Assembly (NCBI GenBank): GCA_001692895.1
Contig: KV748203.1
Coordinates: forward strand, 248,001-312,000
Source of the DNA: Cenococcum geophilum 1.58
Lineage: Eukaryota > Ascomycota > Dothideomycetes > Gloniales > Gloniaceae
Direction: 5' to 3'
DNA length: 64,000 nt
Made by a program: the position numbers and the translations under genes. The notes under the pieces are model-generated. The model searched no databases. It saw only the letters and a program-made list of their open reading frames with translations, and was not told where the DNA came from. Below are positions 4,941 through 64,000 of the stretch, one piece after another (position 1 is the stretch's first letter; every line of letters begins with the position of its first letter).

Positions 4941-6025
4941 GTGTCTGCTTTTACTTGAATATGCGTGATGGACTTACTATCACCTCTTTTCATGGTCATG
5001 GCCACTTTGCATGAGATGGTTGTGCCGTCTTTGCGTATTTATAGGCGGCGCGTGGTTTGCGTCCAGGATTTGTATGCTTGTCAATCCGATTCAACACTAT
5101 TATCATTTATTCTCGGCGGGTTCCACGGTTGCATGATATCTAGTCCTTTCCAGTTTTCGTCATGCTGGACTAATAGGCCGGGCTTGCATGCAGCGCACGT
5201 CCGAGGACTAGACCATATATCGACAGAACACTCAAAATCATCATTCCACTTGGTTATCACGGAGTACGAATACGGAGACCAAGACAGATTTGCACATTGG
5301 AGTCTGTTTTCTGCCCCTGTGTAATCGGTACCTTCTCTTCCCCCTTCTCTTCCTTGAGGTATTCTAGGTTTCCTGTCTCGATCTCCTCTATTTCACACAT
5401 GTTTGGTCTTTATTCTGCGTTTATCAAATTTAGTCTTGTCTCTCGAAAAGTTCCTCGGGTTCCGAATCTCGTCTCTTTTCCTGGCCAACAAATTGGACCT
5501 GTTTGTCTCCCTGTTGCGGCGATAGGAGGTCGTGTTTTTGTATCGGCGCAAACTCGGGAGGGGGCAGGTTGAAATCTTCCTATAGAATCCTAGTTGCTCA
5601 GGCGCGTAAGTAGTTTAGAATCCAATCCAGTATCCTGACAAACTCCAATAGTATATTTAATATGGAATGCCATTGCTCTGCCTGCGGAAGGAATAGCCTG
5701 CCTAGCCTGCCTAGCCTGCCTAGCCTGCCTAGCCTGCCTTGTCTGCCTAGCATATTTCTCTAACAGTCATCACGTGCAAACAAGTGGTATGGGCTTACAG
5801 ACATTCTACAATAACATTCGAAATGTCATAAATGAAAGGCATTTCGCATCCGAGGCCCTTTATTGGGATTCCAAACAAGGGATGACCTTTCTAAAGTTGA
5901 CCACATGTTAGCATGCCTTTCTCCCCACAGATTTTAAACCATACTAAGATGTATTAACTATATATTAACTAGCTGAGCATTACCTGATTTGTAGACCCTG
6001 CCATTTCGCCCCTCCTATATGTGTG
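4941..6025. other. Intergenic, 3' side of eIF4B
   Basis: No gene is recognised. It contains the eIF4B 3' region, pyrimidine-rich stretches around 5330-5550 and the 9-bp tandem repeat listed separately. From about 5900 it becomes AT-rich up to the first MITE. Confidence 0.5.
5695..5748. repeat. 9-bp tandem repeat, AGCCTGCCT x5-6
   Basis: Five perfect copies of AGCCTGCCT are followed by one altered copy (TGTCTGCCT). A simple minisatellite in non-coding DNA. Confidence 0.9.
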
Positions 6026-6213
6026 TACACCACCCTGGCGCATCCGGTTGAAAGCGCGTGTTGATTACGCTAATCAAAATGCGTATATTTATACCTAAAA
6101 AAGGTAAAAAATACGTTAAAATGGTCGTGCGTATTACTTCAAAAGGTATAAACTCTACCGTTTGATCGCTAAGATCAACACGTGTTTTCAACCGGATGCG
6201 CCAGGGCGGTGTA
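6026..6213. mobile_element. Mariner-like MITE, copy 1 (188 bp)
   Basis: The terminal inverted repeats begin TACACCACCCTGGCGCATCC and end with its near-complement, flanked by TA, as expected of Tc1/mariner elements. The inverted repeats extend for about 40 bp (GGTTGAAAGCGCGTG inward). There is no coding capacity. A second copy lies at 45520-45708. Confidence 0.8.
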
Positions 6214-6722
6214 TATTCTATTATAGTCGGAGCGGGTCGGCCACACTCCCTACTAGCGCCGGCAAGGTATACGTACCTTAATAAAGGACTCGACATCAAT
6301 ATTATTACGTAACATGGTTTATTTCTGGTGCTGTTGCTTATATTAGTATAGTACTGAATTTAATTCCTATTCTCTAAGGCCTGTTAATGCGCTTTTTGTT
6401 AATATAGACTGCAGCTTCATTTTGACCTCTAGATTCCTCATGATGGAAGGCCTTAAATATAAAACCTGTGTTAACATGCTGGGAGTATACTATATATAGC
6501 GATAGCTGGCAACGATCTCACTACAGCGAGACAGCTCAATAGATACGGCTTCTAAAATATTATACAAATGCCAGGGAATGCTAACTACTGGAAGCGCAGG
6601 CTCCTCCTATTAACTTTAGTGGTTATATCGACGTGAACTGGCTAGCATAGAAGGCTGCTTCTCCGCAGACTCCATCTTCCTAGTCTTTGGCCATTTGGTG
6701 TCCCATATACATTAATATGCTC
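6214..6722. other. AT-rich intergenic with a dispersed-repeat fragment
   Basis: Positions 6227-6271 match, in reverse, the dispersed repeat at 11862-11900 (core GTGGCCGACCCGCTCCG). The rest is AT-rich with no gene seen, and lies just downstream of the NLR-like gene. Confidence 0.5.
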
Positions 6723-9700
6723 CTATGTAGAAGACTCCTCAGAAGACTCGATATATTCCCACGAGTGGTTCTCATGTAAGTGGTCGAGAAAAGGCTTACA
6801 CATGAAACAATAATCCCAGTCGCGACAGTCGCGACAGTGGAAGCGTGGCCCGTAGATGTCCTATTCGATATGAGAATTTTTCGACCGCTTCCAGCTACCT
6901 ACTTACATAAAGGCATCCATCGCACCAATAACCACTATAACGTCTGCCGTTAAGTTGCACGGCATCTGCAGCGCTTGAATCAGCCCCTGCACCTAGCAGA
7001 GATCTGCAGGATGCAGGCAATTCTCCTAGCATCTTCCCATTTCCATGGAAGATAGCAATAGAAATAGGGCTCCATTGCCCTTCTGGTTGAGGGAGAGTGA
7101 CACATTCACTGCGTAAACCTTCTTTAATTAGTCGCTTAATAATATTAGGGTTTCCTGTCCTACAAGCCCAGTGAAGGGGAGTCCAGTGTCCACTCTGCGG
7201 CGAGGACGTAAGACCCTTACCGAGCACTACGTTTAGAACCTGTAATGAGCTTCCCGAAGAAGCATAATGGAGCAGACTATCTCCCTTCGCGTCCTTAGTT
7301 TTAGGATTAAGGCCTAAGCTGAGGAGATATTCGAAGGTGTTAATGTGTCCACTTCTTGCAGCAAGCTGAAGAGCAGTTCTGCCATGGGAATCCGCAAGGT
7401 TTTGGATCGCATGGTATTGCTCATAGACCAAACGCAGTAGATGTGTATACCCCTTGAAGGCAAGGAGGTTCAAAAAGGACCCGTACGAACCACCAAGGCA
7501 GTTAACGTTGGCGCCCTTGTCAAGCAGCAGCTTTACGACCTGCACGTGGCCTTCATCTAAAGCCGCCTGGAGTGCGTTGCCGTACTCTCCACCTTGCGCG
7601 TTAACATCGGCGCCCTTGTCGAGCAGCAGCTTTATAACCTGCTCGTGGCCTCTGTATAAAGCCGCCTGGAGTGCGTTACCGTACTCTCTACCTTGCGCGT
7701 TGACATCGGCGCCCTTGTTAAGCAGCAGCTTTATGACCTGCTCGTCGCCTCTAGCCGAACCCGCCTGGAGTGCGTTGCCGTGGTATCCACCTTGCGCGTT
7801 AACATCGGCCCCCTTGTCGAGCAGCAGCTTTACGACCTGCTCGTGGCCTCCGCCTGAAGCCGCCTGGAGTGCGTTGCCGTGGTATCCACCTTGCGCGTTA
7901 ACATCGGCGTCCTTATCGAGCAGCAGCTTTACGACCTGCTCGTGGCTCCGCCTGAAGCCGCCTGGAGTGCGTTGCCGTGGTATCCACCTTCCGCGTTAAC
8001 ATCGGCCCCCTTATTAAGCAGCAGCTTTACGACTGCTCGTGGCCTCCACCTGAAGCCGCCTGGAGTGCGTTGCCCGTACTCTCCACCTTGCGCGTTGACA
8101 TTGGTGCCCTTGTCGAGCAGCAGCTTTATGACCTGCTCGTTGCCTCCAGCTGCAGCTGCCTGGAGTGTGTTACCGTGGTATCCACCCTGCGCGTTAATAT
8201 CGGACTCTTTATTAAGCAGCAGCTTTACGACCCTGCTCGTGGCCTCTAGCTAAAGCCGCCTGGAGAGCGTTGCCGTGGTATCCACCTTGCGTGTTAACAT
8301 CGCCCCCTTGTCGAGCAGCAGCTTTACGACCTGCTCGTGGCCCTCCGCTTGAAGCCGCCTGGAGTGCGTTGCCGTGGTATCCACCTTCCGCGTTAACATC
8401 GCCCCCTTATCGAGCAGCAGCTTTACACCTGCCTCCGTGGCCTCCGCCTGAAGCCGCCTGGAGTGCGTTGCCGTGGTATCCACCTTCCGCGTTAACATCG
8501 GCCCCCCTTGTCGAGCAGCAGCCTTTACGACTGGCTCGTGGCCTCCGCCTGAAGCCGCCTGGAGTGCGTTGCCGTAACTTTCCACCTTGCGCGTTAACAT
8601 CGGCGCCCTCGTCAAGCCAGCAGCTTTACGACCTGCCACGTGGCTTCCATATGAAGCCGCCTGGAGTGCGTTGCCGTAGTATCCAACTTGCGCGTTAATT
8701 ATCAGTGCCCTTGTCGAGCAACAGCTTTACGACCTGCTCGTGGCCTCCATCTGAAGCCGCCTGGAGTGCGTTGCCGTACTCTCCACCTTGCGCGTTAACA
8801 TCGGCGCCCTTGTCAAGCAGCAGCTTTACGACCTGCTCATGGCCTCTGTATGAAGCCGCCTGGAGTGCGTTGTCATATTCTCTACCTTGCGCGTTAACAT
8901 CGGCGCCCTTGTCGACGAAGCAGCTTTACGACCTGCTCATGGCCTCTAGCTGAAGCCGCCTGGAGTGCGTTGCCGTAATCTCCACCTTGCGCGTTAACAT
9001 CGGCCCCCTCGTCAAGCAGCAGCTTTACGACCTGCTCATGGCCTCTAGCTGAAGCCGCCTGGAGTGCGTTGCCGTACTCTCCACCTTGCGCGTTAACATC
9101 GGCGCCCTCGTCAAGCAGCAGCTTTACGACCTGCACGTGGCCTCTGTATGAAGCCGCCTGGAGTGCGTTGCTGTACTCTCCATCTTGCGCGTTAACATCG
9201 GCGCCCTCGTCAAGCAGCAGCTTTACGACCTGCACGTGGCCTCCGTATGAAGCCGCCTGGAGTGCGTTGCCGTGGTATCCACCTTGCGCGTTAACATCGG
9301 CGCCCTTGTCGAGAAGTAGCTTCACTACCGCACCGTATCCAAACTCTGCCGCGAGCAACAGCGGCGTCCGTCCGTAGCTGTCTCTCGGGTCTGCTGAGAT
9401 AATGATATTTCTCCCCGGCTTAGATAGCAGCTTCTCTGATAGAGAAAGCAATCCAAATTGCGCCGTTAAGTGCAATCCTGTTGTTTCTCTGGGATAATTT
9501 TGAGAATACATGCCGTATTTGTAAGTTGAAATCGACATAACCTGTACAGCACAGCAAATCGAGCTGCTGCGCCGAAGAAAAGAACAAGCTAGTTCAAACA
9601 CCTGATCTTGAACCGCTAGTGTATGCTGTCCCCAATGCCGAGCAGCATAGTCTAAGAATACATTTTGCTCTAGCCTGCCCTCGAAGTCTTGATTAGTAGG

Positions 9701-11571
9701 ACAGCTGCCACGTCTAAAGGTACTGAAGGAGAGATAAGTAAGACACGTTGAGGCTATATCTAGCTGTGCGCGAGGATTCCACTCTTCTATAATCCGCTCG
9801 AAATACTCCTGGGTAGTGTAGTGTACCAGACGGATAATATCGCTCTCCTCGTCCACGGTAACAAGGCCGGCACACACGGAGACTATATCTTCGACATTGG
9901 GAATGTTGTCCGGATCCAGCTCTTCTTCGCCTAGCTCTACCGCCAAAGCATGGCATAGCTCTGCAGTAGTGGGTTGTCTCTGTGCGTATGTAATCCAGGA
10001 CAAGACATTCCTTGCTCGTTCCCGCTTTCCAGGAAGTTGGCTTTCTATTCTCTTAATCGCTTCGTCGTACGCTTCGTCATAGACTTGCTCGAGTGCTTTA
10101 GAATCTTTAGAGCTTCTAGAAAATCGCCTCAAAGTCAACTTCACTGCCTTAACAGTATCCTTGTCCAGTAATGAGTCGGTGTAGAGGCGAGCGAGAAGGA
10201 ACCTAGCAGCATTGTGAGCCATAAGTGCTTCCACGAGCCGCGCGACATACTCACATGCCATCTACTGCTTCAACAATCTTATCTTGCACTAAGCCCTTCA
10301 GCTTAACGTCCCGTTGAATACATTTCGGAAGTTGGTAAGTCTGGCCTGCCACGAATCGTTTTACGTCCTCATGATTTGCGCGTACTTCTAATGTTGGCAT
10401 CCCCTTAAACTCAGTTTCAACCCCTAGAATAAATCTCGAAGTGGCCATTAGACGTAGGTCTGTCCTGCCTTGTAGATCTCGGAGCTTGGCAAGAAACTGG
10501 TGACGGCTGCCGTCTTTGTCCAGACACTCGTCTAGAGCATCGACCACGAGATACACACTTGAATAAGTAGCAAGAACAGATTGAAGAGCCCTGAAGATCT
10601 CTTCAAGTGATGGCTTAGTCCCCCGGTCGGCATGCTGCTTATGCAAAAGTTCCACAGGCTCCGCGATGGACGGTCGGACCTGCACTAGCTGCTTAAGGAT
10701 GGCCGCTAGTAGACTAGCGGCATTCTGATCCACCTGTGCCTTGTAGTTACAATACACATAAGCAACTCCAACGGCACCGGTCGGTATTACTTTTAAAAGG
10801 TGATCGATTGCGATTGCTGCTATCATCGTCTTACCGGCTCCGGGGATCCCGGGACAGAACAGCGTCTCATTTGGTCCATGAAGCCACCTCGCAAACTCGG
10901 GGGCGTCGAGAAACCACTGACCTGTCCCTTCTTGTCTGCGGCCTACAAAATCAGATTGCAGAGCCGGAAAATCCGTTGGTGATATCCATCCCATGAGCTT
11001 GTTGTGCCGTACACGGTCTTGGTCTTGCCGTATCGTATCAAGTCTAGATTCTATTGTGGGAACGCGGTTCCGAATGAAGGCCGTGTCGTCTTTGATTGCT
11101 TGAGATAGTTTGCTTAGACACATGAGCAATGTTGTCTTGCAACGCTATTACGGAGACTTACAAGTGGTCCATCTGTAACGCTATCTCCACCAGCGTCTTT
11201 AGGCGTTCCATCCTGGCCAATATGCTAGTAACTTCCTCTTTGCTAAACTTCCACACAAGCGCGTCGCCTGCCTTTTTTAGTCTGCCTCCGCCAGTCATCT
11301 TAGCCTGCAGCTGCTCAAGCGCTTGCTTGAACTGATCGAGCGGCCCATTCTCGACTCCGAGAGCTCGAACCGCGGTATACCACGATTCATTGGAGCTTCC
11401 CTCCTCAAGTCGGAACCTTAAACTGACAAGAAGACTGTTGAGGCTCGAAGCCTCGACGGCGCATTTTGCCCGGTCTTTCGAGGCATCCTTTATGTCGTTA
11501 AGGTATCCGAGAACCTTGTTGGAGAGCTGGAGAATAGCAACAATGCTAGCTATAACACCAAGCGGGTCCAT
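6723..11571 (-). CDS. NLR-like NACHT-ankyrin protein with C-terminal ZZ finger
   Basis: Exons: 11571-11162, 11112-10255, 10202-6907 and 6860-6723. Exon 1 encodes a fungal STAND N-terminal domain (MDPLGVIASIVAILQLSNKV). Next comes a NACHT NTPase with Walker A GIPGAGKT and Walker B VYLVVDALDE, then a winged-helix-like region (RNVLSWITYAQRQPTTAELC) and WNPRAQLD/CLTYLSF as in fungal NACHT-ANK proteins. About 18 ankyrin units of 33 residues and more divergent ankyrins follow. A 46-nt intron (6906-6861) joins CDGCLY to DIYGPRFHCRDCRDWDYC and a HENHSW tail, making a ZZ-type zinc finger. By family this is a signal-transducing NTPase of the type used in heterokaryon incompatibility. The ankyrin array between about 7930 and 8930 holds ten or more single-base insertions/deletions, many in C runs, that break the frame, so the allele is either mis-assembled there or a recent pseudogene. 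Confidence 0.85.
7495..9315 (-). repeat. Array of about 18 near-identical 99-bp ankyrin-coding units
   Basis: Each unit encodes the pattern VVKLLLDKGADVNAQGG..GNALQAAS. Units differ mainly at a few codons (for example the GHEQ / GHVQ and YHGN / EYGN positions) while the rest is nearly invariant at DNA level, including synonymous sites. This indicates recent amplification or concerted evolution. Confidence 0.9.
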
Positions 11572-12787: not shown

Positions 12788-14740
12788 TCAATATAACCAC
12801 CAATTCGTGTTTTGGGGCTTCCCTAACTGTTCCTTACTCCCTGCAATCTCTAGGAACAAGAACAGGCTGCGCTCAACGAGATTCTTACTCACTAGCTGCA
12901 GGCTTGCATCTACAAAGATGTTCCTCTCGTTATATATCAATTCCCAGCCCATGCCCGGCCTTCGTTCGGAATCCTTTATATAGCTTCCCCGGTGCCGACT
13001 TTTGTAATGCGCGATTGCCTGCACTACGCGTGCTTTGCGCTTCCCACTCATTGATTCTTGCTCATTCAGTTTTAATATCAAGCGGCTCCTGGTCGTGCAA
13101 ACTCTTGCTAGGTTTTCTTTCTTGTTGGTATCCAGGAAAGCGTGGAAATCATCGTCCGTATTAGTATCGCTCAGGATGGTGACGCAGTCTATCCAGGGAG
13201 CTGTCAGTGTGCCGCCGACAATGATCGCGAACGACGGCTGAGTAACGGTGATGCTAGCCCCCCCATGAAACTTATTGGTTGACATCTCGATGCCGCATGC
13301 ACGGCCTTGACAACTTAAGTCTCGGGCCTTTTTAAGTCTCATTGAAACGGTTTTGTCGATGAGACCAAAGAAATGTTTGTGGTCTCTTCGCGGGGTAAAG
13401 ATCATTGCAGCATGTAATTTGTCTAGATCGGCTGATAATGTAATTATCTGGTCAATGGGTGAGTAAGTTGCATGGGCTGAGCACACAACTTCCTCCAAGA
13501 GGTAATGGTCCTGGAAAGCGTCGGCAAGACGGATAAATCTGAGGACGGTCTTCGGCACTGGCCCAACGTAGAATGGTGAGGGCTGCTTGATCAAACACAC
13601 TGAGGGCTGGCGATACGGGTTCCCACCCCTCGCCAGATCTCGCGCTGGAATAAGCAATAGCTCTTTGACACGCGTCGTCCACTGTTGACCCCAGCGTTTT
13701 AGCGGGAATCCTAGATACGATTCGTAGTTCCCCTCCATTGTACAAAAGAGCGCGGCGAATTGGAGTGGCTCTTTTTCCAACTGCAACACTTGGAGCTCTA
13801 CGCGCACGCCATCACCCAAAACGGTTGGTGGAATGACGGGGTGCGGATTTTCTAGCACCCTGATGCGATCACTGAAGGTGAAGTCAGAGGGTGAGTCGGC
13901 GAAGAGACCGTGCAGATCTCTGGTGTCCTGCGGTGCACACTCGTGCAGGAATTGTTGCATCGTTCGAGGCTTCTCGGCGAGTCCCCAAGCGAAGAGAGAT
14001 TGGTCGTCTGAAATCTTCATGATTTCCTGAAGCCTTGCAAAGGCTTTCTTACCCTCCCCGTACAGCAGAGGCATGCTAACTCCGAATATGCCTAGCAAGC
14101 AGTAGGTTTCGTCTTCAATCCGGGTGGTTCGTCGTTTCGCTGCCCATGACATCTTTCTCGCTATGCTGATATGCCTGAATTTGCCGGACCTTAAAACTTG
14201 CTCTTCAATCCCGCTGATTTCTGAGAGCTGACCGCGCAACTTGAGCTTTGAGCCTATGTAGTGCCAATCCGAATCGTAGAATTGAATATTTGGCGGCGCA
14301 ACGAGCTCTTGCAAAGTCCAACCTCTCGTAAACCATCGACTGTAAGGAAACTCATTAATGCCCCTCACATCGGAAAGATAAGCGTAGCACACTTTCGCAT
14401 CGCGATACCACCGAAACATCGAGTTAATAGCTTCTGAAAGCTCAGCCGTGCTAGTTTTATCGATGCAGCAGCTGGACCACCTCCATTAGCCTGACCCTCC
14501 TTAAATTCCCTGCAAAACTTACGTATCAACCCAGACCCATTGCAGGCCGTCGCGTAAAGCTTGTTCACACGATAATTTGATTTTCGCAAAGCCTATTCGC
14601 GACGTGACATTTGGATCTTCCATTTGTTGGAGCGTGCATTCTTCGCCGCCCCATGTGTGGGACAGAATCGCGAAATCGGGAACGCTGTCATTGCTGAGAA
14701 ACTCGTGGATTCTGCGGGTGGATGCGTTGATTAACCGCAT
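12788..14740 (-). CDS. HET-domain (heterokaryon incompatibility) protein
   Basis: Exons 14740-14523 and 14471-12788 join as WVWVDT/CCIDKTSTAELSEAI, giving about 634 residues. The N-terminus MRLINASTRRIHEF with FAILSHTWG and WVDTCCIDK is the HET domain of the HET-E/HET-D/HNWD class; RWFTRGWTLQELVAPPNIQF and EDETYCLLGIFGVSMPLLYGEG are its usual continuation. Proteins of this class trigger regulated cell death on non-self contact. The C-terminal 350 residues have no WD40 or ankyrin repeats and resemble the tail of single HET proteins. The frame is intact, so the gene is probably functional. It converges on the STAND relic, with which its 3' end nearly overlaps. Confidence 0.9.
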
Positions 14741-15506: not shown

Positions 15507-15675
15507 CATGAGTGAGTTAGCCTGCATTGGGCAGCGCAAAAGGTTTGTACGCCACTGGTGCTAGCAGGGAGGGTGGCCGACCCGCTCCGGCCATACCCCA
15601 AGGGTGTGTCTCGGAAACACCTTGCGTTCATTAATACACCGATGAGCACGCGCCACATACTCCCATCTACCATGG
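15507..15675. repeat. Dispersed repeat, copy B (extended)
   Basis: Positions 15507-15588 match 19651-19729 (CATGAGTGAGTTAGCCTGCA and onward). Positions 15560-15675 are identical to 11871-11986. The composite shows that the two matches belong to one longer repeat. Confidence 0.85.
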
Positions 15676-16462: not shown

Positions 16463-19400
16463 CTAAACATCATTTAGTCTCCTCCGCCGAAACCACGTTT
16501 GAGGCACTTTTGCAAGATTTGTTACCCCTTCAGTGATCGGGACGTCGCCCCCTCTTCGATCGGGTAGAAGTGCCATTATTTCTTTGTCACTCCCCCAATT
16601 CCTTGCAATCTGGGCCACCACCGCTTCGGTAATCGGGACGTCGCCCCCTCTTCGATCGAGTAGAAGTGCCATTATTTCTTTACCACCCCCCCAATTCCTT
16701 GGAATCTGGGCTACCACCTCTTCGGTAATCGGGACGTCGCCCCCCCCCCGATTAAGCAGGAGTGCCATTATTTCTTTGCCACTCCTCCAATTCCCTGCCG
16801 CTACCTCAACCACCCCTTCGGTAATCGGGACGTCGCCCCCTCTTCGATCGAGTAGAAGTGCCATTATTTCTTTACCACTCTCCTAATTCCCTGCCGCTGC
16901 CTTGACCACCCCTTCAGTGATTGGGGCATCACCCCCTCTTCGATCGAGTAGAAGTGCCATTATTTCTTTACCACTCTCCCAATTTCCTGCCGCTGCCTTA
17001 ACCACCCCTTCGGTGATCGGGACGTCGCCCCCTCTTCGATCGAGTAGAAGTGCCATCATTTCTTTGTTAAAATTCATTGCAATCTGGGCCACCACCCATT
17101 CGGTAATCGGGGCGTCGCCCCATCTTCGATCAAGTAGAAGTGCCATTATTTCTTTATCATTCCCCCAATTCCTTGCAATCTGGGTCACCACCCCTTCGGT
17201 GATCGGGGCGTTGCCCCCTCTTTGATTGAGTAGAAGTGCCATCATTTCTTTGTCAAAATTCATTGCAATCTGGGCCACCACCCCTTCGGTAATTGGGACG
17301 TTGCCTCTTCGATCGCGTAGAAGTGCCATTATTTCTTTGCCACTCCCCCCATTCCCTACCGCTGCCTTAACCACCCCTTCAGTGATCGGGACGTCGCCCC
17401 CTCTTCGATCAAGTAGGAGTGCCATTATTTCTTTGCCACTCCTCCAATTCCCTACCGCTGCCTCGACCACCCCTTCGGTAATTGGGGCATCGCCCCATCT
17501 TCGATCAAGTAGAAGTGCCATTATTTCTTTGCCACTCCCCCTATTCCCTGCCGCCGCCTTGACCACCTCTTTAGTAATTGGAATGTTGTCCCTTCTTAGG
17601 TCCAGTAAAAGTGTTAGTATTTCTTTATTAAATGACCTTGTAACCCGGACCATCTCTTCTTCTGGGATCTGGATATTGTCTCTTATCCGATATACTAGAT
17701 CTTTTATCGTCTCTAGCTCCACTACACTCAGGTCCCTTTGATCTATGTAGGTTGACGCTAGGTTGGCTATGCTGCTTAGGGTATCTAAATGGTCCATCCT
17801 ATGCACCTGCTTTCTTGTCTCTATTATCTGCAATAATATCTTTTCAGCCTCCTTCCATTGCTTGTCTTTCTTGTATATTAATGCAAGGTTTTCTATGTCT
17901 GCCAGTTTATATGGGTGCTCTTTTATAGGCGTCCCCTTATGGCTCTCTATTGCTTTTTGAAGCCTCTTTCTTGCCTCTTTATACTCTTCCAAGTCTCCTA
18001 AGATTAATGCCACGTCATATAATGTAGCAGCTTTGTTTGAAGTTGCCATTAAATACTCCGGCACTGGAGTATTTACCTCTATCGGAGTTTTATATCCTAC
18101 TCGATCTCGCATTCCCGCTGACTCTTCCCAATTCCACACTAGTAGAAAGTCACGTGGGAAGCTTTTTGTCGAAGGCAAGGGTCCTTGACGCTTAATATAT
18201 CCACTCTCCGTTCGTACGCCCTGCTAAAGAGCAACTGCAATCTTAATAATAGTAAAATTATCCTTACATGTTCTAATAATAGTCGGCTCCGAAGCCCCTT
18301 GTAGAAGGCAGACGAGGTCGCCCCGCTGGATAGATTTTGCCGAGGCCTGGAGAGTCTATTGAGTGCCCTATTTCTTCTTATACTCCAACGACCTAGGTTT
18401 ATTCTTGAAAATAATAGTTACGTGCTGTCTATTATACCGAGCACTGTCACTTTCTACCGAGGACACCTGGCCGAGAATACAGCCTTTGCTTTTAATCACT
18501 GCAATCTCCTTTTCGTCCTAAGTTTCTATATAGACCTCTTTATAGAGAAGGAATTCGACAAGTTGCTGCAAGAGTTTCTTCTATGGGACCTCGTAGTTAG
18601 GCGATAAACCAGCTGCGCTAGGATCATCAGAGCTCATGCCAAATAAGGCATATACCTTGTCGCGGCGCTTAGTAGCCTCGCGGGTATGGTACATATCTAT
18701 TAACTTACCCAGAGAGACTCCGCCTAACGAACTTGTTGCATATTTTGGCCGGAAGATTGCTCCCCTTATTACGTAAGTTACTGAACGGATTAGACCCTGC
18801 AAGCCTGGATGAGCTCCATAGGAAAGCTTTAATTTATTAAAGCCTGAGTAAAAGGTGTACCCGTTTATCTCCGCAAGGCCACACATAATTAGAACACGTC
18901 GAGCTGCGGCGACTTCCTGAAGTACCTAGATCGACCTTTTAATAACCTCTGCGGATATTGTTAAGTATCTGCTCTCTTACCCAGATGCGCCGAAACCACG
19001 GTCGTTTAAGTAGTTTGAGAATTGCTTTCTGACTCTTTTCATTGTTCAATGAGTTTGTAAATTCACCTTCTGCAGTAACACGTATGTCTTCAAGCGCTTG
19101 ATCGCTATTGTCCGCCGCCTCTCCAAGCCAAACGATTACACGATTTGCTTGGCCATAGATCTTCGCCATAGACTGAACCTGGTGTCCTTTCTCTTTCTTA
19201 TCTGCTTGGTTGATGCAAATAGCATCTACCTATATAATTCGTTCAAAACAGCGATCTTGAAGATGGGATAGCGCCGTGTAAAGGTTTACCGTGACGGGCA
19301 AGTTATGTTTGTTTATTGAGATGGGTAAAGTTTCCTTTGGATCGCCCCATACGTAGGATAAAGCCTCGTACAGGTGAGTCCCTCCGCCCGATTCCTGTAG

Positions 19401-19517
19401 AGAGTAGTTGACGAGCTGGCATTGTATAGGGGCAGTTTTGTCTTCATGTGGCATCAGGCGAAGCAAGCGAATACTGTCAGGCCCCGGCAAAAGCGAAGAA
19501 TAGCGGTACGAGGACAT
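16463..19517 (-). pseudogene. HET-TPR-repeat gene with seven in-frame TAG codons
   Basis: Starting at MSSYRYSSLLPGPDSIRLL, one frame runs 999 codons through a single 55-nt intron (18980-18926, joining FRRIW to VLQEVAAARRVLIMCG). Order: HET domain of the HET-6 type (ALSYVWGDP; VDAICINQADKKEKGHQVQS; LLKRPWFRRIW), a linker (VIKSKGCILGQVSSVESD, SFPRDFLLVWNWEESAG), TPR-like helices (LILGDLEEYKEARKRLQKAI, LALIYKKDKQWKEAEKILLQ) and 12 repeats of about 32 residues. Stops are all TAG, at plus-strand triplets 19230, 18581, 18518, 18368, 18356, 18224 and 16883. Several lie where the family has tryptophan (FERII*VDAICINQ; EVP*KKLLQQL; repeat GN*ESGKE against GNWESGKE). There is no frameshift and no TAA or TGA. 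RIP decay is the simplest reading; editing of UAG to UGG in mRNA is the alternative. Confidence 0.85.
16490..17640 (-). repeat. 12 tandem 32-residue repeats in the HET-TPR gene
   Basis: Units follow KEIMALLLDRRGGDVPITEG with VVKAAAGNWxSG between; some lack six bases or so (the MNFDKEMM type). DNA identity between units is high. The unit looks like a helical solenoid motif often found at the end of fungal HET/NLR proteins, but I cannot name the fold. Confidence 0.85.
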
Positions 19518-19650: not shown

Positions 19651-19738
19651 CATGAGTGAGTTAGCCTGCATTGGGCAGCGCAAAAGGTTTGTACGCCACT
19701 GGTGCTAGCAGGGAGGGTGGCCGACCCGCACCGGCCAG
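19651..19738. repeat. Dispersed repeat, copy C (partial)
   Basis: Matches 15507-15595 almost perfectly, then diverges after CCGACCCGC. It lies immediately upstream of the HET-TPR gene start. Confidence 0.8.
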
Positions 19739-20369
19739 ACCCTTGCGGAGATGGCGGAATATACATACATACATACGTGGAGATGGCGAGAGCGTAACTG
19801 AGATGTTGGATGAAAGCGTTGTTTTTGCTGTTGGATAGCGCCGAGCGATGTGGCGGCGATTAAGCCCCAGCCACATGTGGCGAATTTAGCGTTTGTGCAC
19901 CCCGCCAAACGTGAAAGTCGAACAACTTCAGGGCAGGGAACACTCCTTACTTGTTGGGTACGATATTCATTCACGGGTTGGTTTGAGAAGTTCTGCTTGG
20001 GTATGAGAGAAGACAACGAAGGTATAGATGTGATTGATGACCCGTTAGAGAATATTAGCATGGAGAGATGACTGCTCAATCAATCAAGGTCAGAAAGTTT
20101 CATACAAGACCCAGAAGATATATGCTCCTGCTCGCGTGAAGGTGCATTTTGCGGGTAATCATCGGGAAACGGCGGTTTGGAGAACGCCACAAGTGGTTTA
20201 ACGCCACTACAACAACCATCTCCATCCAACACCTCAGCTACACTCTCGCCATCTCGACAATACGTCAAGCTCCCAGTATCAGCATATCGAACAGCGACCT
20301 CACACCATTCCTACTCTCCCCTTCAACCCCATTTCTGTCTTCAATTGAGTCGTCTTGATTATCTTTTAA
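19739..20369. other. Intergenic, promoter of the next gene
   Basis: Contains a short (ATAC)n run near 19760 and, from about 20200, C/T- and C/A-rich DNA typical of a fungal leader. No gene is recognised. Confidence 0.45.
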
Positions 20370-25847: not shown

Positions 25848-27792
25848 ATGCCAGTATGCCAGTTGTGCCACAACGGCGATCCAGGCATTAATAAATTCTT
25901 CCTAGAGTTATCATTGTCCGCAATATCTGAGTCCGCCAGGGGAGGCTGTGGCGTGTGTCATCTGATATGGAGTCTAGTAAAAGTTTATTGGCCTGAAATA
26001 TCCGCTAACTCTCGTCATGAACATCGCTTGATTTGGTCAACTCCTTTCCCACGATATCAACTGAATCATGAGATACGCCTTGAAAGTGTTGAGTCTCTTA
26101 GTCGCCTTATAATAGGAAAACCTATTGAAGTTTTCCAACCGCTAAGTTAGTCGCCTCTAGCCTCTGCTCCCTTGATCCTAACTATTCACCAATCCACTAA
26201 CCTCGAGTTATTACTGAATATATGTAGATGCACCTTACCATCTGAGATATCTTAGTCAGAGCCCTGATGTACCCGGTGGCACTAACTCTGAGTCAAGTTA
26301 CCGCCAATTAGTTGGATGGCTGGAGGAATGCCACAGCCACTCATCATGCCCACCTCAAACAGACAATTGTCTGCCCAAAAGAGTACTTGACCTGGGCGAA
26401 TGTGACCAAAAAGGCCAAGTCAGATTATATGAGTCTTATGGGGAGTTGGGACGATATACCTGCCTTTCTCACTGCTGGGGGCTTTCATCATTGATCAAAA
26501 CAACCTCGCTCAATATCCACAAACATAAGGAAGGAATAGCGTTCAATGAACTGCCGAAGACTTTTCAGGATGCTGTTACTATTAGCCGGAAATTGGGCAT
26601 TCGTCACATCTGGATAGATTCGCTTTGTATCATTCAAGATGATGATAAGGACTGGCGAATGGAGTCTTCCAAGATGGCTTCAATATATCAGAACGGCTTT
26701 CTAACCATCGCGGCATCAAGAGCATCTGGTGACAACGACGGCTGCTTCTCCGTCGGTGCAGAGAAATACATATCTCGCCGGATCAAGTTTGACGATTTAA
26801 ATGGTTCTGAATATATTTTGCATACACGGCCCGTTCTCCCTCATGACGACAATCGTTCGCCTCTCTTTCACCGCGCATGGTTTTTCCAAGAGTGGCTTCT
26901 GTCTCCACGGGTGATCCAGTACACCGACAGTGAGCTGGTTTGGGAGTGCACGGAGATGAAACGGTGTGAATGCTCACCCAAGGTCACCAAGCCGAGCTTG
27001 TCAAGGAGTGCTAGGGTCTCGCTCGCTCAAGGGCTACGCCTGGGGTCCCCGTCTGATTCGATCAACACTAGCGATTTATCTATCCAGGCCACGTGGCGCA
27101 GTATGGTCGCAATGTATTCTAGCTCCCGGCTTACATATGCGAAGGACATCTTTCCGGCTCTATCCGGAGCTGCTAGAGTAATGCAGCAGCAAAGGAAAAC
27201 ACGGTATGTCGCCGGATTATGGGAAGATAGTTTGGTTGAAGATCTCATGTGGCAACCTGGTGATGAATTAATCGACAAGCTGGGAAACTGGCGAGCGCCT
27301 ACTTGGTCATGGGCGTCCCTGGGAGGGCCTGTCAATTATGTGCTTTGGAAATCAAGCACAGAGAAAGATGCTCAGATCATTGATATATCCTGTGTCCCGG
27401 TATGTTCTGATCGATTGGGAGAGTTAGTCTCCGGGCATATCGATATTTCTGGGCGAATTTTATCCGGGGCTTTAGCCTGTGATGACGGCTCTGATATCGA
27501 GTTCGAAGACGGCGAAAAGTGTCAGTTCCGCAGAGATAGAAGTGCAGCCTGGTACGCGCAGCATGGCTGTTCTAGTCTTACACCTGGCACATCAGTGCAT
27601 CTCCTACTCATCAGTTCAGTCTCAGAGGATGCTTCGCCGAGATGGTACTTTTTTCTAGTACTTCGGTGCGTCGATAAAAAATATCAGGTCTACGAACGAA
27701 TAGGCATAAAGACCGGGTTTCACTCCAAGGGCGTTCAGTTGTTCACTAAGTTACTCGAAGGAATCAAGCCTCGAAGAATCAGGATCGTCTAA
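25848..27792 (+). CDS. HET-domain protein, TOL-like type
   Basis: The N-terminal exon starts MPVCQLCHNGDPG and has a CxxC...CGVCHLIW pattern seen before the HET domain in this type. An intron of about 100 bp lies somewhere between 26140 and 26245; its exact borders are uncertain. The long exon runs YLSQSPDVPGG, LGRYTCLSHCWGLSSLIKTT, IRHIWIDSLCIIQDDDKDW, ASIYQNGFLTIAASRA, RAWFFQEWLLSPRVIQYT and APTWSWASLGGPV, the full HET block order. About 600 residues. By family it triggers vegetative incompatibility. The frame of the long exon is intact. A MITE sits six bases beyond the stop. Confidence 0.88.
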
Positions 27793-56206: not shown

Positions 56207-59022
56207 ATGGAGGAACCGTGGTGCGTACGGGCGTCACTGGCCCTGTACGAGAAAAGGGTTGTGCCCAGGAGTCATCCACCCAGCGCCCCGGAATTCTATT
56301 TTCCCCGGAGCGTTATCCGCAAAGCATTTAATGAGCTTCCAGCCAGAGATATCTTCCTCTGTGACTGCGAACATTGCAAGCGCCACTCTCGCACTGAGTA
56401 TGGGACTGATAATCGAATCGACCAGATTAGGGATATCGAATGCAAACTACTAGACGACTACCTATTAATCTACGCACTGTTAATATACCAAAGAAGGCCC
56501 ACCTTGATTGGCAAATTCATCTCACAAAACGTTAGGTTAGATGGTAACGTTTTCTTGAAAGCTAAGGATCTCGAGTTTCTATTACCACTAAGCGGCGCGG
56601 CATTCCTTCAAGACAATATTCTACGTGATCAGTGGAGATTCCAAGTCAGGGCTTTAGTGATTTCGCAGGACCTTATGGCCTATGAGTCGAAGGAAATAGT
56701 GCCAATCGACAACAAGGACCTAGTTGGTGAGGGACAATTTGGCACAGTCTACAAATCTTCCTTCCCGTATCCGGAATATCGAGGATCTGGATGGAAGGAG
56801 GAAGAAGTATGTCCCAAATACTCTGCCCAGGTTAGCACGCACTTACAATACTCTCCAGCAATTCGTTTTTGCCCGCAAGGTTTTTGACAGCACAAGGTTC
56901 AACTATGCGCGGGCGGAGTGGGATATACTTCTGCGATTCAACCAGAATAGCCACGACCGTTTCATGCGCGCACTTGGCGCCTTCATTCACGCAGACTCCT
57001 TCTCGATAATTTTTCTATATGCTGAGAACACACTTGAGAAGCTGCTCATGGCCGATTTTCCGGATCTTAGACCTGAAGACATATGGAAGCAAATCCTCGG
57101 GATCTCCGAGGCTCTTGAATGTCTGCATGAAGATAACAACATAGTCCATACAGATCTCAAACCACAAAACATTCTCATTCATAACGGCACATGGAAACTC
57201 GCAGATTTCGGATGCTCCCGCCTCATAGTTGATATGGAGAACATGGAAGGTCGAGACATACAGGCCGGGAGAGTATATTCATCCCCAGAGACTATTTTAG
57301 ATAGGCCAGCATGTGATATATGGTCACTCGGCTGTATTTTGTCGGAAATTGCCACTTCCGATTTACAAAAAAGGGACGGTCTCAAGAACTACCGAAACGA
57401 AAGAAAATCTGAAGATGCTGTCTATATCAAATCAGAGTGTTTTCACATAAATAAGAAAGCAAAGCAAAGTGTTAGCACGAGGCACAATGACTTGCTGGAT
57501 CTAGTATGTAAGAGTAAGAGCAGAAAAGGTGAAAAGTTGTCATCTTGGCAGGAGCGATTCTATTCCAAGGACCTTTTTGGTCTTGTGGAACAAATGCTCG
57601 GTTCCATGGAAGGAAGGCCTTCAGCGTCTGAAGTATCGAAAAATCTAAGACGGTTCATTGAATAAGCGTCGGACGCTGATGGGGAATCCACCCGCGAACC
57701 AGACATATGGAGATCCATTCGTGAAATGGCTACTCCGGGAGACTCCCCAAAGCCTTGTCCGATAATGTAAGCATCATATATCACTATTCGACTCTCGCAA
57801 TGTTTCGGCTAACGAAATCATTCTAGATACGCATCATTTATCCAGGGTACTGGTAGCACAGAGATCCGCTGTGCACTTCTTTTCTACCAACATGGCAAGT
57901 CAGGGCGAGCCACTCTAAAACGATATCACCACGACGAGCAAAGGAACGAGGTGGCACTTGAATATTGCGGTTAGTTACTGCATCAAACAAGGCCAGATAC
58001 AAGGGTTTGTACACCGCTCACTATAGGACAGTATATCGTAGCAAGTTCAGCTGTCGTACAAGAGATCCCGGACGCGAGATAATAGGGTTCTTCCTACCCT
58101 ACGCTAATTCAAACGAATTTACTCTTGTATTCAGGGACGACCACAAGGATAGATATTCGCTGCGGCATTCAAAGGGTGAGCCCTGTTCCCTACAATAGCA
58201 ACTCAACGTGCTCATTATTCCGAAGACAAATCCAGCCTCCAGGCTGCGCTTACCGGCCTATCAATTCATAGCTCGTAAGTTTAGACTCGCCCCACTCCGA
58301 TCCTGGTCGTGTTTGAGAGTTCCTTTTGCAAGGAAATGCTGTTCCGTCAATATTTCTTTACGTGTTTCATCTAACTAGGGAATGATTAGTATCGATAAAT
58401 GTTCACTCCAATTTGACAGAAATGGGGGGTTCTTCTGTCGGCTGCTTTGTTTCAGAAAAGAGCCTATTCAAATAGATAATGTTCAGGTTCAGATCTTGAC
58501 CGATAGAGATGTTACTCAGAGGACACAACCAGCATCAAGAAGTCCCCCATCGCCGTTAAATATGAGGATTTCCGTTACAGCCGCAGCACTTTCGAAGCTC
58601 TTTCTTGTTTACGGTATGGTGGATGTGGCCGCTCTACAGACGTTTCACTAAGAATACTTAGTTTCCCATAACATTGAACATACCATATTAGATACACTTC
58701 TAACACTAAAAAATGTCTCAGTCCGTGAGATAGAACTTATTCAAGGCATCCCAACCAACATTTCTGTTTCAGCTTCATATGACTACAAACCGAATCAGGA
58801 AATAAGACTCAAGTTCAGTAACACTAATGGTGAGTTCGACTCTACACCGTCAAGATGTTTCTACTATCACATTCAAGTCCGTTTCTCGACGACATGAATT
58901 TATCCTTACGAAACTTACCACTGCCAGATTCGCACAACTTCCTGAGCAAATTCATAAATGTCTATGACGAGTGGAAAACATCTAGAGAACAGACAAGAAA
59001 GATAAACCAAGACTTAGATTAA
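56207..59022 (+). pseudogene. Fungal protein-kinase gene with in-frame stops
   Basis: Exon 1 (56207-56806) begins MEEPWCVRASLALYEKRVVP and has the glycine loop LVGEGQFGTVYKS. A 52-nt intron leads to QFVFARKVF (the likely ATP lysine), then NNIVHTDLKPQNILI (HxD with T instead of R), KLADFGCS and ACDIWSLGCILSEIATSD. The frame meets TAA at 57663 but stays open for another 37 codons (EPDIWRSIREMATPGDSPKP) to a good donor, a 60-nt intron with a CTAAC branch site, and another exon (SFIQGTGSTEIRCALLFYQH). Later stretches such as DNVQVQILTDRD-like and VSVREIELIQGIPTNISVSA are also separated by single stops (TAG after CSLQ, TAA after LQTFH). C-to-T change of CAA/CAG would explain all three. Kinase domain alone could still be made. 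Confidence 0.65.
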
Positions 59023-59469
59023 GTTCATGACCCTAAGCATTCCAGGCGGTGGACGGAGGTTTTTTTTCCTTTGAAAATACAGTACACGCATCATAGTACT
59101 CTGGTGGTGCGTTAGAGGGCTTTTGTCAAGTTTTCAGTTCAGCGTTTAGTAAGTTCGTCATCTGTATTTATAAATGGGTGGGTGTTCGGCCATTAATGGG
59201 TTTGTTTTGTTAGCACGGGCATTATTTCTTTGGAATCGCATGGGACAAATGTGTGTGACGTGGTTTTCCCTTTGGGGCCGCTCAGGTGTAAAATTTAATA
59301 TAATCTATTATGAAAAACCCCCGAGAAATAAAACCGTTCACTAGGAATGAAAAGGTAGATGGTGATATGATGCCTTGGGGTAACAAATGAAATTTCCTAC
59401 AATGGACAAACGAAACAAGAGCGAAAAGGTATGAGAAAGTGCAAAAATAACAAAATATGCACACGAAAG
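59023..59469. other. Intergenic, AT-rich
   Basis: No gene. The 8 bases ending it (CACGAAAG) are the presumed left target duplication of the hAT-type element. Confidence 0.5.
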
Positions 59470-60539
59470 CAGTGATCTATTTGGACTGGAGTGGCGTGGA
59501 TCCGAGATCAAATCCACTCCATCCACCAAAAAGACGATTTGACTCCAAGAGCGCCATGGAGCTCCAGTGTAGATATACACTATTTATAGTAAGTCTTAGC
59601 ATGACCTTAGTGTCATACTTAGGGGTAAGAGGCGTTTAGACTTACCAAGAAAGATTATCAGATTTACTTATTAGTTTCCTCACCACCTTCCTCTATAATC
59701 TTATCCTCTTTAATAACCACTACCCTATTATATAGACTCTTCCTTAGAGCCGGTCTCTTCTTCTTTAATTATATTAAACTCCTCCTTAAAGCCAAAGCCC
59801 CAAACGTCCTCGGTAACGTTCGTTGCTTAGTATACATCGGCCACTTTATAAGAGATTTACGCCAAATATACTATCTACCGTAGAGCTAAAACTTACGAAC
59901 TTCCTTAGGGTCGTCGGCCTTTAGATTAATTAACTTTAGTGTAAGGATAACGTTATTAGTAGGTGCGGCTGCGCGTATAGGAAAGAATCGCTCTATAGTA
60001 ATTAAGGAAGGCAAAATTAAGCCGCTAATTAATTAACTAGGAAAGAAAGGAAATAAGCAGGCTCTATAGATCGTATCCCTTTACCTCAGAAGCTCAGACT
60101 AAGAAATCGATTGTGCGGATATAGGAATATCCGCACCGTCCGCTAAGCTGATTTAGGACGGCAATCGTTTTCTTAGTCTGAGGGACTTTGGCGAGATTTG
60201 TAGAAAACCTAAACATCGTTTATATGAGAAGACCTCATCAACTTTGACAAAATTGATCTACCCTCCCACAATACCTGTCGACATAAAAATTACACCAAAT
60301 TATAGAGAAAAGCCTACTCTATAAAGCTATGAGATCTTCAGCTCCTTATACGCGCGCGACGTTAAGAGGAATTCGTCGCCGTAGAGGCCCTAATTCTACC
60401 TCTGCACCGCCGAGCCGCGCAGTAAACACCAACGCTGAACGCTTACGCCCACGCCGCCAGCCCTCTGCGTAGAGCTTTGCGAGAGCTCTGCGGAACGAAG
60501 CTCAGGGGGAGACCTGCACGGAGCTCTGCAAAAGCTCTG

Positions 60540-61130
60540 CACGAAGCTCCGCACGAGGCTCCGCACGAAGCTCTGCTCGAAGCTCTGCTCGGGGCTCTGC
60601 TCGAAGCTCTGCTCGAAGCTCTGCTCGAAGCTCTGCCCGAGGCTCTGCTCGAGGCTCTGTTCGAAGCCCTATATAGAGCTCCAAAGCTCTACTAACACGC
60701 AGCGCTAATATACTAGGAAGGTTCTACAATTGCCCGTACGAACGCCCGTACGAGCGCCCATACAATCGTCTCTACAAACGTCTCTGCAATTAATCGCCCG
60801 TACGAACGTCTGCACGTCTGCACAGTTACACGTCTGTACGCCTGCACGTGGCTCTGCACGAAGCTCTGCACGAAGCTCTGCACGAGGCTCTGCACGAAGC
60901 TCTGCACGAAGCTCTGCACGAAGCTTTGCACGAAGCTCTGCACGAGGCTTTGCACGAAGCTCTGCACGAAGCTCTGCACGAAGCTCTGCACGAAGCTCTG
61001 CACGAAGCCCCACACGAAGCTCTGCACGAAGCTCTGCTAAGGTTCTGCACGAAGCTCTACACGAAGCCCTGCATTAAGCTCTACACGAAGCTCTACTAAG
61101 GCTCTGCACGAGGCTCTGCACGAGGCTCTG
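60540..61130. repeat. 12-bp minisatellite, GCTCTGCACGAA family, two blocks
   Basis: Block 1 (about 60540-60672) has the variant GAAGCTCTGCTC and block 2 (about 60845-61130) mainly GCTCTGCACGAA. Because 12 is divisible by three and the unit lacks stops in most frames, several frames stay open on both strands (ALHE, ARSS, RASC, RAEL repeats). I regard these as non-coding consequences of the repeat. Confidence 0.9.
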
Positions 61131-61516
61131 CCCCCTAGTAGTAGCAGAGACACTCCGGGCCAAGGGAGGATATTTTTAAGGAAGGACCCAACTATAGCAC
61201 CTACTAGGTGTTGTAATAGCTTTAAGTAGTAGATATCTATATATCTATATAGTTTTATCTATATTAGTAGACTATTTAATAAGATATAATATATGCTTAC
61301 GCTTTTAACAACGCGTTTTTTAACTTTGACGAAATTAATGTCAGGACTAAGCAATAGCCGTATAATAAAATTAATACCATTTAGAAGCCCTAAGTCTTAA
61401 AAAAAATGTGACTATGGGGTTTAATAATAACGCGTTATGTGAATGAATAAATTAGATATCCGTAATATCCGTTTTACGGATTTTGCTTACGTTTTTAACA
61501 AAACTCGCCAAACCCT

Positions 61517-61602
61517 CTCAGACGTGATTTTGCAATTCGGAAGACGGCGTAGGTTATTCCGACGCTAGCTAAAAAAATCACGTCTGAGCTCGCTGAGGTA
61601 AC
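61517..61602. repeat. Inverted repeat with CTCAGACGTGATTTT arms
   Basis: CTCAGACGTGATTTT at 61517 is repeated in reverse at 61574-61587, followed by CTCGCTGAGGTAAC. One arm recurs at 16401-16428. Possibly a small foldback element abutting the piggyBac relic. Confidence 0.6.
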
Positions 61603-62393
61603 GTATCCCTTAAAACGGCAGGGCCCTTAGAGGATGTGGTCTGTGCGCAAACACCAGGATCAAAACAACGCGCATATCTATATAGAATTCAATCATTAAT
61701 TACACCACCGCCATGCCTTCTAATCGTACTAGAATTAATGCGGGCCTTGTTTAGAAGACTTAATATAATATTCCTCCAAATAGAATCGCAAAAAAATCCT
61801 GCCCTAAGCCCCGGCCGTTGCCCAAATTCGAACCTCTCCATATTAACAATTGGGACGAATGGCTCACCAAACCTGCCCTCTAACGTTAATACTTACGATC
61901 CTTTTAAGTTATTTAGTCTATACTTTATAGATGAGATTATGGGTAAGCTTGTAGAGTAGACAAATAAGCACGCAAAGTTGTACCCGCCAGATGAGGAAAA
62001 GGAACACCTACGCGTATGGCAGCTAACACGCTCGCAGGTATACTTAGGTACAGCATATAGGGCGTCGGAAAGCTCTATCAGAGCTATTACCAAATACTAT
62101 AATGCAAGCACGCGATAGTAAGGAATGGGAGAGGCGGAAACGGGCTCCGAGGACCAATTTTGGGTGTAGTATCTGCAAGATACCGCTCTGCAGAAAGGAC
62201 GAGTGCTGGTTACCTTATATCGAGCGANTCAATTCNAAAGAATAAGCCTATATATCGAATAGCTATGAAATTAAAAGCTTCGTATTTCTGAGAACGGCTG
62301 CTCGATTTGGCTGGTTTGATTGGTGGGCTCTTATCGATACCGTAAGGCCCAATTTTACCGTGTCAAGGGATAGGGACGCTCGTATTCTAGAAA
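61603..62393 (+). mobile_element. Core-deleted piggyBac-like element (791 bp)
   Basis: The left end GTATCCCTTAAAACGGCAGG and the right end (inverted CTATCCCTTGACACGGTAAA) match the termini of the MITE at 15086-15347, and TTATCGAT lies just inside. Coding remnants in order: MPSNRTRINAGLV, PPNRIAKKSCPKP, then DPFKLFSLYFIDEIMGKLVE (the hallmark opening of the piggyBac DDE domain), LRVWQLTRSQVYLG, then a jump to FGCSICKIPLCRKDECWLPY, the cysteine-rich C-terminal finger. The catalytic core between is absent. In-frame TAG and TAA codons interrupt it. Two ambiguous bases lie at 62228 and 62236. Confidence 0.8.
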
Positions 62394-62694
62394 ACCGAGT
62401 TATTATACGGCTCTACCGATTGGCCCAACTACGCTCTAATACCTTATTAACCCTTCCTCTATAGCCACCTTCTTCTAATTAGATATACGACTGGCGCTCC
62501 AAGAGCTCCAAAGCCTTAAAATCCACTCCACGCCACTAATGAAATCACCGGATCCACACCTAATGCAAATCGGCTCCAGTCCAAATAGATTACTACATAA
62601 AAGGACTGCGGACAGGATCCGGATAGTAATACTTGGTAGTAGCTTTGCTGTCCGAATGTTCTACTAAGTTAGCGGCCTAATAAGCGGTAAGGGA

Positions 62695-64000
62695 CAGTGA
62701 TTGTATTGGACTGGGGTAATGTTGAAGCTCCATGTGGATCTAGGGGTCGTATTGGAGCTAGATCTAGTGATTTTAGATCCGGAGTAAAGTGGATCTGGTC
62801 AAACTGGGGCTCTTGGAGCTCTAGTTCTATACCTGAATAGGAAGAGTTCTATACCTAAATTGGAAGGAGGTTAAAGGAGGAAAAACCAAAATGTGTTAAT
62901 ACGGATATTAAGGACTAGTAGAGCCAATTATTAGCTCTAGTGGTAAGCGTCTGCCCCAAAAAACGCGTGTATTATTAGTATAGAATTAAGGACAGCTTAT
63001 TATTGTTGCGTCGTTGCTACTGCTTCTGCTGTCTAACCTTATTTTCTCTTACCTACCTGCTGCCGCTATGGAGCGATTTTATCCTTAACTCCGTACCTCT
63101 ATTATATCTAACAACATTGTCCTTACACCGGAATGGCTTAATGAAAAGGCTAAGGGCCAGGCGGAGGTTAAAGAGTTTAAGCTACAGGGCAAGCTGTATA
63201 TTCGCTGTAAGGCCTTAATAAAGGGACCAAAGAATACTAAGCCGCGATCGTCACTAATTTGGAAGTAGGGGGAGGATATATAGGAGAAGGATAATACTAC
63301 TAAGACGTAGTACTTCTATTGCTACCTATATAAGAAGGTAAAGCGTTAGCAGGAGTTTATGGTTATGTTATCTGGAAGAACTACTGCTCTAGATTACCTT
63401 AAATTTAACTACTATATAAACCGTATTTCTGGCGAGCTTTAACTAAAAGAGCCTTCACTAAATTAGCTAACGATTAAGGAATATCCGTAGGTAAAGTCTC
63501 TTAATCTATAATGAAACTTTAAGGCCTTTAAACACCTATTAATTTAATAGATTGTTAGCTGCTATATCGCCTTCTTTTAATTTAAAAATGAGTATTTCCG
63601 AACGCTCCTATTCTATATTTATCCAGGGCTTGTAAAGTTCCTACTAAAGACTAGGAAGACAATACGCGGTTAGGTTATTGCAGCTTTTAAATAAAGGAAA
63701 ATGGAACTAAGGAGGGAACTCTACGTAGCTTATAGTTCTATATTAATATCCTTTAATCTTTAAACCTTACTAAATAGGTATATAATTCTAGGTATTGCTG
63801 CCTATTTTATTAACCAGTATGGCAAGCGTTAGCATATAATACTAGGCCTCTATAAGGTAATTAGTAAATATAGTAGTAAGAATATAGCGGTTACCCTACT
63901 TACTCTATTTAAGGAGTATTAAATTAGTAGCAATATTAGGTATTTTATGGCCAATAACGCTGAGTTAAACGATACCTATATTAACGTAATCCTTTAAGTC
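62695..64000 (+). mobile_element. Start of a second hAT element with mutated transposase, runs off the edge
   Basis: The presumed end CAGTGATTGTATTGGACTGG resembles the shell element at 59470. From about 63068 a hAT transposase can be read: NIVLTPEWLNEKAKGQAEVK, a BED-like region SSLIWK*GEDI*EKDNTTKT with YFYCYLYKK, and a later block LISFNL*TLLNRYIILGIAA, YFINQYGKR, NIRYFMANNAELNDTYINVI. The last matches the hAT signature with Trp replaced by TAG. Stops are TAG/TAA, fitting CpA-to-TpA mutation on both strands. The frame also shifts among segments. Confidence 0.7.

Follow-up and report, generated by a model that had tools for sequence, protein, structure and literature searches.

A HET-TPR-DUF7104 gene of Cenococcum geophilum interrupted by TAG codons only: very probably a pseudogene struck by RIP mainly on one strand

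Gene structure and domain content

The window, that is, the whole 64,000-nucleotide stretch of DNA analysed, carries on its minus strand a HET-TPR-DUF7104 gene that runs from an ATG at 19517 to a terminal TAG at 16463-16465 (Table 1). Its spliced frame amounts to 1000 codons counting the stop and includes seven premature TAG codons, no TAA and no TGA. The TAG-only frame with one GT..AG intron, as described in the original prediction, is thus borne out. Six of the premature TAGs are located in the body of the gene (codons 1-600) and one in the C-terminal repeat array. An additional TAG at 18926-18928 forms the 3′ end of the intron and is not a codon; a stop at the point matching this site (query codon 179) is also present in four relatives from the same genome, L002, L005, L009 and L010. 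Since the other two frames of the spliced sequence hold 34 and 32 TAA codons, respectively, the frame of the gene is a real coding frame and did not stay open by chance. Across its 3 kb a frameshift was looked for and none was found, which agrees with the earlier description.

Table 1. Features of the HET-TPR-DUF7104 gene, in window coordinates
Feature	Positions	Strand	Basis or remark
Exon 1, with HET domain (19370-18981)	18981-19517	-	Spliced-frame coordinates and Pfam
Single intron, 55 nt, GT..AG	18926-18980	-	
Exon 2: linker, TPR, DUF7104 repeats, terminal TAG	16463-18925	-	Coordinates and Pfam
Premature TAG, codon 96 (exon 1)	19230-19232	-	
Premature TAG, codon 294	18581-18583	-	
Premature TAG, codon 315	18518-18520	-	
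Premature TAG, codon 365	18368-18370	-	
Premature TAG, codon 369	18356-18358	-	
Premature TAG, codon 413	18224-18226	-	Tryptophan in 0/4 open relatives
Premature TAG, codon 860 (sole one inside the repeat array)	16883-16885	-	
TPR region	17618-18043	-	Extent from a TPR_NPHP3 match below Pfam's own cut-off
Array of 12 DUF7104 units, mostly 96 nt	16490-17623	-	Few RIP-type changes
Upstream region common to family members L003, L009, L011 and L024	19518-19745	-	

When the gene was scanned against Pfam with its stops read as X, the domain order proposed earlier was recovered, with HET in exon 1 (E 2.1e-33; 116.1 bits, the cut-off being 22.5) and TPR and DUF7104 in exon 2. In the TPR part both TPR_12 (1.3e-11) and TPR_10 score above the cut-off, the TPR_12 core stretch being 17732-17902, and comparison with PDB gives an alignment with kinesin light chain 1 (E 6.4e-21). 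DUF7104 matches at 3.6e-142, with 9 stretches individually above the cut-off, and by motif the predicted 12 units are found with their starts in register, two of the spacings being short (29 and 30 codons). A structure model of a 446-aa stop-free stretch is nearly all helical (mean pLDDT 62.5, pTM 0.46) and suggests, with modest confidence, that each DUF7104 unit forms two helices of a solenoid. Judging from these domains, the intact relatives are probably HET-type cell-death switches that sense through TPR and DUF7104 solenoids.

Several other features lie in the window. Two further HET-type genes are located at 12788-14485 (minus strand) and 26218-27792 (plus strand), the first with a sub-cut-off Pfam HET match in its scanned stretch. 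On the minus strand between 6895 and 11144, NPHP3_N (NACHT-type), winged-helix and ankyrin matches are spread over the open stretches 6895-7995, 8894-10261 and 10251-11144; the ankyrin units are closely similar to one another and TpA/ApT is raised (1.18 and 1.27 in 6001-10000), so that this may perhaps be another recognition gene touched by RIP. A 92-bp direct repeat occurs at 15507-15598 and 19651-19742, the two copies being 98% alike and 4144 bp apart. It was considered as the mark of a mobile element, and no element is inferred: the second copy lies within the region found upstream of several family members. RIP-like dinucleotide bias climbs toward the end of the window (58001-64000), where the index difference reaches 0.14, 0.36 and 0.80.

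Relatives in the same genome

The gene belongs to a dispersed, duplicated family within the same genome. A search of the organism's own assembly (177.19 Mb in 162 contigs) returned 71 matching stretches, which are stretches and not copies; one is the gene itself and the other 70 are 64-86% identical to it. From these matches 21 loci were read, and seven more that had been fetched were dropped because they fell on the window itself or overlapped records of loci already read. Four relatives, L002, L003, L005 and L010, show no stop in codons 1-600 other than at the splice site; L002 is interrupted once farther along, near codon 830. L009 is open over exon 1. Among the remaining 16 loci, 15 contain 10 to 77 stops with TAG and TAA mixed, and L020, which comprises repeats only, has one. 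Pooled over the 21 loci, a few splice-site stops included, there are 265 TAG, 228 TAA and 9 TGA. Because TGA is nearly absent and TAA is about as frequent as TAG, as CpA-directed RIP gives, the relatives bear the signature of RIP. In the heavily mutated copies L004, L007, L011, L013 and L017, 41-71% of TpG and 49-69% of CpA sites are changed. The TpA/ApT ratio over codons 1-600 is 0.87-0.94 in the four open relatives, 1.11 in the gene studied here and 1.44-1.68 in seven heavy copies.

The relatives also bear on the claim that several of the TAGs stand for conserved tryptophans, which is borne out. At five of the seven positions at least three of the four open relatives have tryptophan (at one of the five a single relative has a gap, and at another a single relative has cysteine). 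At codon 860, where the repeat alignment is ambiguous, 6 of the other 11 units of the gene's own array have tryptophan and no open relative does. At codon 413 no such counterpart exists, and the TAG there is not accounted for by a simple tryptophan route.

Cenococcum geophilum has been marked 'Probably' in a published tabulation of RIP (PMC5445492). A candidate RID/Masc1-like methylase, a 730-aa open frame matching PF00145 and containing the EQT triad described for RID/Masc1 proteins (PMC6709928), is encoded in the same genome. In this candidate (L030, 484-2676), EQT occupies motif VI, and motif IV has PCC in place of the usual PCQ. Other PF00145 matches are found on contig 13 and on contig 110, the latter with internal stops.

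Mutation spectrum and the missing TAA

Repeat-induced point mutation (RIP) converts the C of CpA to T, which on the template strand shows up in the gene as TpG becoming TpA. By the genetic code the sole stop that TpG to TpA can create is TAG, out of the tryptophan codon TGG; the formation of TAA from CAA, or of TAG from CAG, requires a change on the coding strand. Single rounds of RIP in Neurospora tend toward one strand.

The spectrum was read at sites covered by three or four of the open relatives, with no disagreement among those present. At such sites the gene shows TpG>TpA in 13/50, CpA>TpA in 2/50, other G>A in 14/163 and other C>T in 9/123. TpG is therefore hit more often than CpA (Fisher p 0.004) and more often than other G (p 0.003), and a RIP-type excess over other contexts exists on one strand only, with CpA (2/50) no higher than other C (9/123). 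This strand bias is kept when the comparison copies are chosen in two other ways (20/66 vs 7/68, and 12/47 vs 2/45). When one-sidedness was tested in 20 copies, the gene studied here gave the lowest p, followed by L021 and L025 (0.02) and L015 (0.06), the other 16 being above 0.1; the p of 0.004 is borderline once corrected for 20 copies. G after C is raised as well (7/37), so that the mutator is not purely CpA-directed. The TpG of tryptophan codons is changed at 4 of 9 sites against 9 of 41 for other TpG, nominally higher and not significantly so (p 0.21). The TAGs are thus the conspicuous fraction of a broader, one-strand set of TpG-to-TpA changes, one that reaches non-tryptophan sites too. 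Many further C-to-T or G-to-A changes relative to a close intact paralogue had been named beforehand as what simple RIP decay would leave, and the spectrum fits such decay.

The absence of TAA had been considered remarkable in view of the many CAA and CAG codons. The open relatives contain on average 15.25 CAA, 13.75 CAG and 12.25 TGG in codons 1-600, and at the rates observed in the gene these predict 3.2 TAG from TGG, 0.6 TAA and 0.55 TAG from CAG. The six TAGs of the body compare with 3.7 expected, which is within chance (Poisson 0.175). At the observed one-strand rates the chance of zero TAA is 0.54, and were both strands hit equally, at 0.15, it would be 0.08; if stops are drawn from the pooled shares of the relatives, seven TAGs have a chance of 0.011. 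The lack of TAA is therefore mildly unusual under two-stranded RIP. Because RIP on the template strand makes only TAG stops, the missing TAA is explained, and the argument from its absence fails once RIP acts mainly on that strand.

The spared repeat array

The body and the repeat array differ in their mutation load. In the nine repeat units counted, TpG>TpA is found in 2/34, against 13/50 in the body (p 0.021). The RIP index along the frame, whose computation had been proposed, points the same way: the product index minus the substrate index is -0.54 over 16463-17699 and +0.08 over 17700-19517, the repeats being spared and the body not. CpA>TpA in the nine units amounts to 2/18, which is no lower than in the body.

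A close parallel is known from Podospora anserina, in which NWDp1 and NWDp2 are described as RIP-inactivated pseudogenes of the HNWD/NWD family (PMC1805685). That family likewise has open and RIP-killed members, and its pseudogenes, like the gene studied here, have many stops in the body and a C-terminal array that is nearly free of them (in Podospora a single stop in one of the two arrays; PMC1805685). In contrast to the HET-TPR-DUF7104 gene, the Podospora genes are of NACHT-WD40 type and their copies went through multiple rounds of RIP (PMC1805685), whereas the hit here was light and mainly on one strand. The authors of that study attributed the spared arrays to concerted evolution with active copies (PMC1805685). 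By analogy, the locus in Cenococcum geophilum may be a silent donor of repeat units, dead in its body and refreshed in its DUF7104 array by exchange with active copies. Both the index and the TpG>TpA counts favour such a role, as does the Podospora precedent. However, a recent expansion within the array would leave the same pattern, exchange between loci is itself conjectural, and the CpA>TpA count in the repeats speaks against the suggestion. A donor role, which is compatible with the gene being a RIP pseudogene, is accordingly a tentative suggestion and somewhat doubtful.

Selection and age of the lesions

Private changes other than RIP-type ones were counted over codons 1-600. For the whole lineage there are 29 non-synonymous and 19 synonymous changes (ratio 0.42), and a stricter count gives 8:9 (ratio 0.22); among the open relatives, codons 180-600 yield ratios of 0.55-0.71, and 0.23-0.47 in the stricter count. 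By transversions over exon 2 the closest relative is L004, at 1.2% compared with 5.3% for L002. Since the split from L004, 11 non-synonymous and 3 synonymous changes have accumulated, a ratio of about 1.0 from n=14; this count allows rejection of a ratio of 0.2 (p 0.006) but not of 0.5 (p 0.20). In exon 1 the changes absent from L009 are 2:2 (ratio 0.28) and those absent from L011 are 2:3 (ratio 0.18), which look constrained as well, on tiny counts. The dN/dS check proposed at the outset thus has a divided outcome: the whole lineage appears constrained, and the part since the L004 split, a small sample, appears neutral. The lineage looks formerly constrained and recently free of constraint, the latter on a small count.

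The sharing of lesions gives a further, only suggestive, indication of age. Of the TpA sites of the gene, 10/11 are shared by L004, compared with 12/22 at sites where TpG was kept (Fisher 0.054), and some of the TpA changes may therefore predate the split, L004 itself being heavily mutated. The same comparison with L007, L009, L011, L013 and L017 showed no significant excess of sharing (p 0.28 to 1.0). In the linker, alignment with L004, L003, L005 and L010 reveals one private 3-nt in-frame difference in the gene and a 1-nt shift carried by L004. The lack of frameshifts would mean that the copy has not been dead for long, or has been lucky.

Interpretation and alternatives

Taken together, the gene is very probably a pseudogene, one member of a dispersed HET-TPR-DUF7104 family, in which mainly one strand was struck by RIP. 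RIP, as the putative agent, would have acted in one or a few rounds on the template strand, turning TpG into TpA in the gene and tryptophan codons into TAG; the coding strand would have been scarcely touched, leaving the route from CAA to TAA largely unused. The repeats would have been refreshed through exchange with other copies, and the full-length protein would no longer be made. The original prediction had judged a RIP relic to be the simpler reading and an edited recognition gene to be one new in kind. The former half is supported by the RIP signature of the relatives, by the gene's excess of TpG>TpA and by the Podospora precedent from the same class of recognition genes, and the latter is left without positive support by the one-strand spectrum, the neutral-looking changes and hairpins that are no better at the in-frame TAGs. 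Ordinary neutral decay without RIP would also account for a copy with just seven stops and few other lesions; it is very unlikely, as all seven stops are TAG, TpG is favoured over other G and the relatives are plainly RIP-mutated.

Another rival reading holds that the gene is live and conditionally expressed, A-to-I editing of UAG restoring the full-length protein at some stage. Genome-wide editing is known, according to a 2024 review, from Sordariomycetes and one Pezizomycete, and the same review reports none in the fruiting bodies of Aspergillus nidulans or Botrytis cinerea (PMC11156358). For Dothideomycetes, the class of Cenococcum geophilum, the accounts consulted mention no editing. Fungal editing prefers U before the edited A, and about 70 F. 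graminearum genes besides PUK1 need, and receive, correction of a premature UAG (PMC11156358). The U is supplied here by the TAG codon itself, and the frame is otherwise open. PUK1, AMD1, FgRID and zao-1/2 of Fusarium and Neurospora likewise have an in-frame TAG within an otherwise open frame (PMC11156358, PMC12754623), and PUK1 has two adjacent edited sites, one of them conserved between species (PMC11156358, PMC12754623). For these genes, however, the published accounts give RNA or functional proof of editing, which sets them apart from the present gene. Editing in F. graminearum averages 14.8%, with single sites at 91-99%, and favours hairpin loops (PMC11156358). Multiplied over seven sites, that average level would yield almost no full-length message. 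Hairpin loops contain 5/7 of the in-frame TAGs against 18/30 of the out-of-frame ones at 20-nt flanks, and 2/7 vs 14/30, 4/7 vs 16/30 and 2/7 vs 9/30 at flanks of 10, 15 and 30, with no consistent excess. Moreover, TpG-to-TpA changes occur at non-tryptophan sites as well, codon 413 lacks a tryptophan in all four open relatives, and the changes since the L004 split, small in number, look neutral.

In favour of editing, a deaminase of the OTT_1508 family has been reported to edit premature UAG in the Neurospora zao genes (PMC12754623), and the genome studied here has 9 matches to this family, which belongs to the Neurospora antiviral editing module, at G000:C28:940825-941007 and eight other places. 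The nearest lies about 0.63 Mb away on the contig that carries the gene, and none was found close to the gene in the 8 Pfam-scanned stretches of the window, which has 81 ORFs of at least 120 aa. No edited HET gene was found in print in a literature search that was not exhaustive. On balance, restoration by editing is quite improbable. Fungal A-to-I editing turns UpA into UpI, which is read as UpG, and in the same two-base context it is the inverse of template-strand RIP (TpG to TpA). A recognition gene struck by RIP on that strand alone could accordingly be imagined as a conditionally silenced cell-death gene, a still more remote idea; if it were true, the gene would be off genetically and switched on at the RNA level wherever a Tad2-Tad3 or OTT_1508-type deaminase is active. 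A reading of TAG as an amino acid, through reassignment or programmed readthrough, would fit the TAG-only pattern but is extremely improbable: TAG serves as the gene's own terminal stop, codons 1-600 of the four open relatives are free of stops outside the splice-site position, and TAA is nearly as frequent as TAG in the heavily mutated relatives.

Implications

A pseudogene made by mainly one-strand RIP is a known kind of event, and its footprint here is unusually clean and one-stranded. A TAG-only frame resembling a recoded or edited gene can thus result when RIP strikes chiefly the template strand, and in fungi with RIP the identity of the stop codon alone is no evidence for editing. With this gene the HET-TPR-DUF7104 family joins the recognition genes that have a RIP-killed body and a fresh repeat array. 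Possible cryptic sexual recombination has been spoken of for Cenococcum geophilum (PMC5816826), and light RIP on one strand would fit few rounds and, by extension, may point to past meiosis in the lineage of this fungus.
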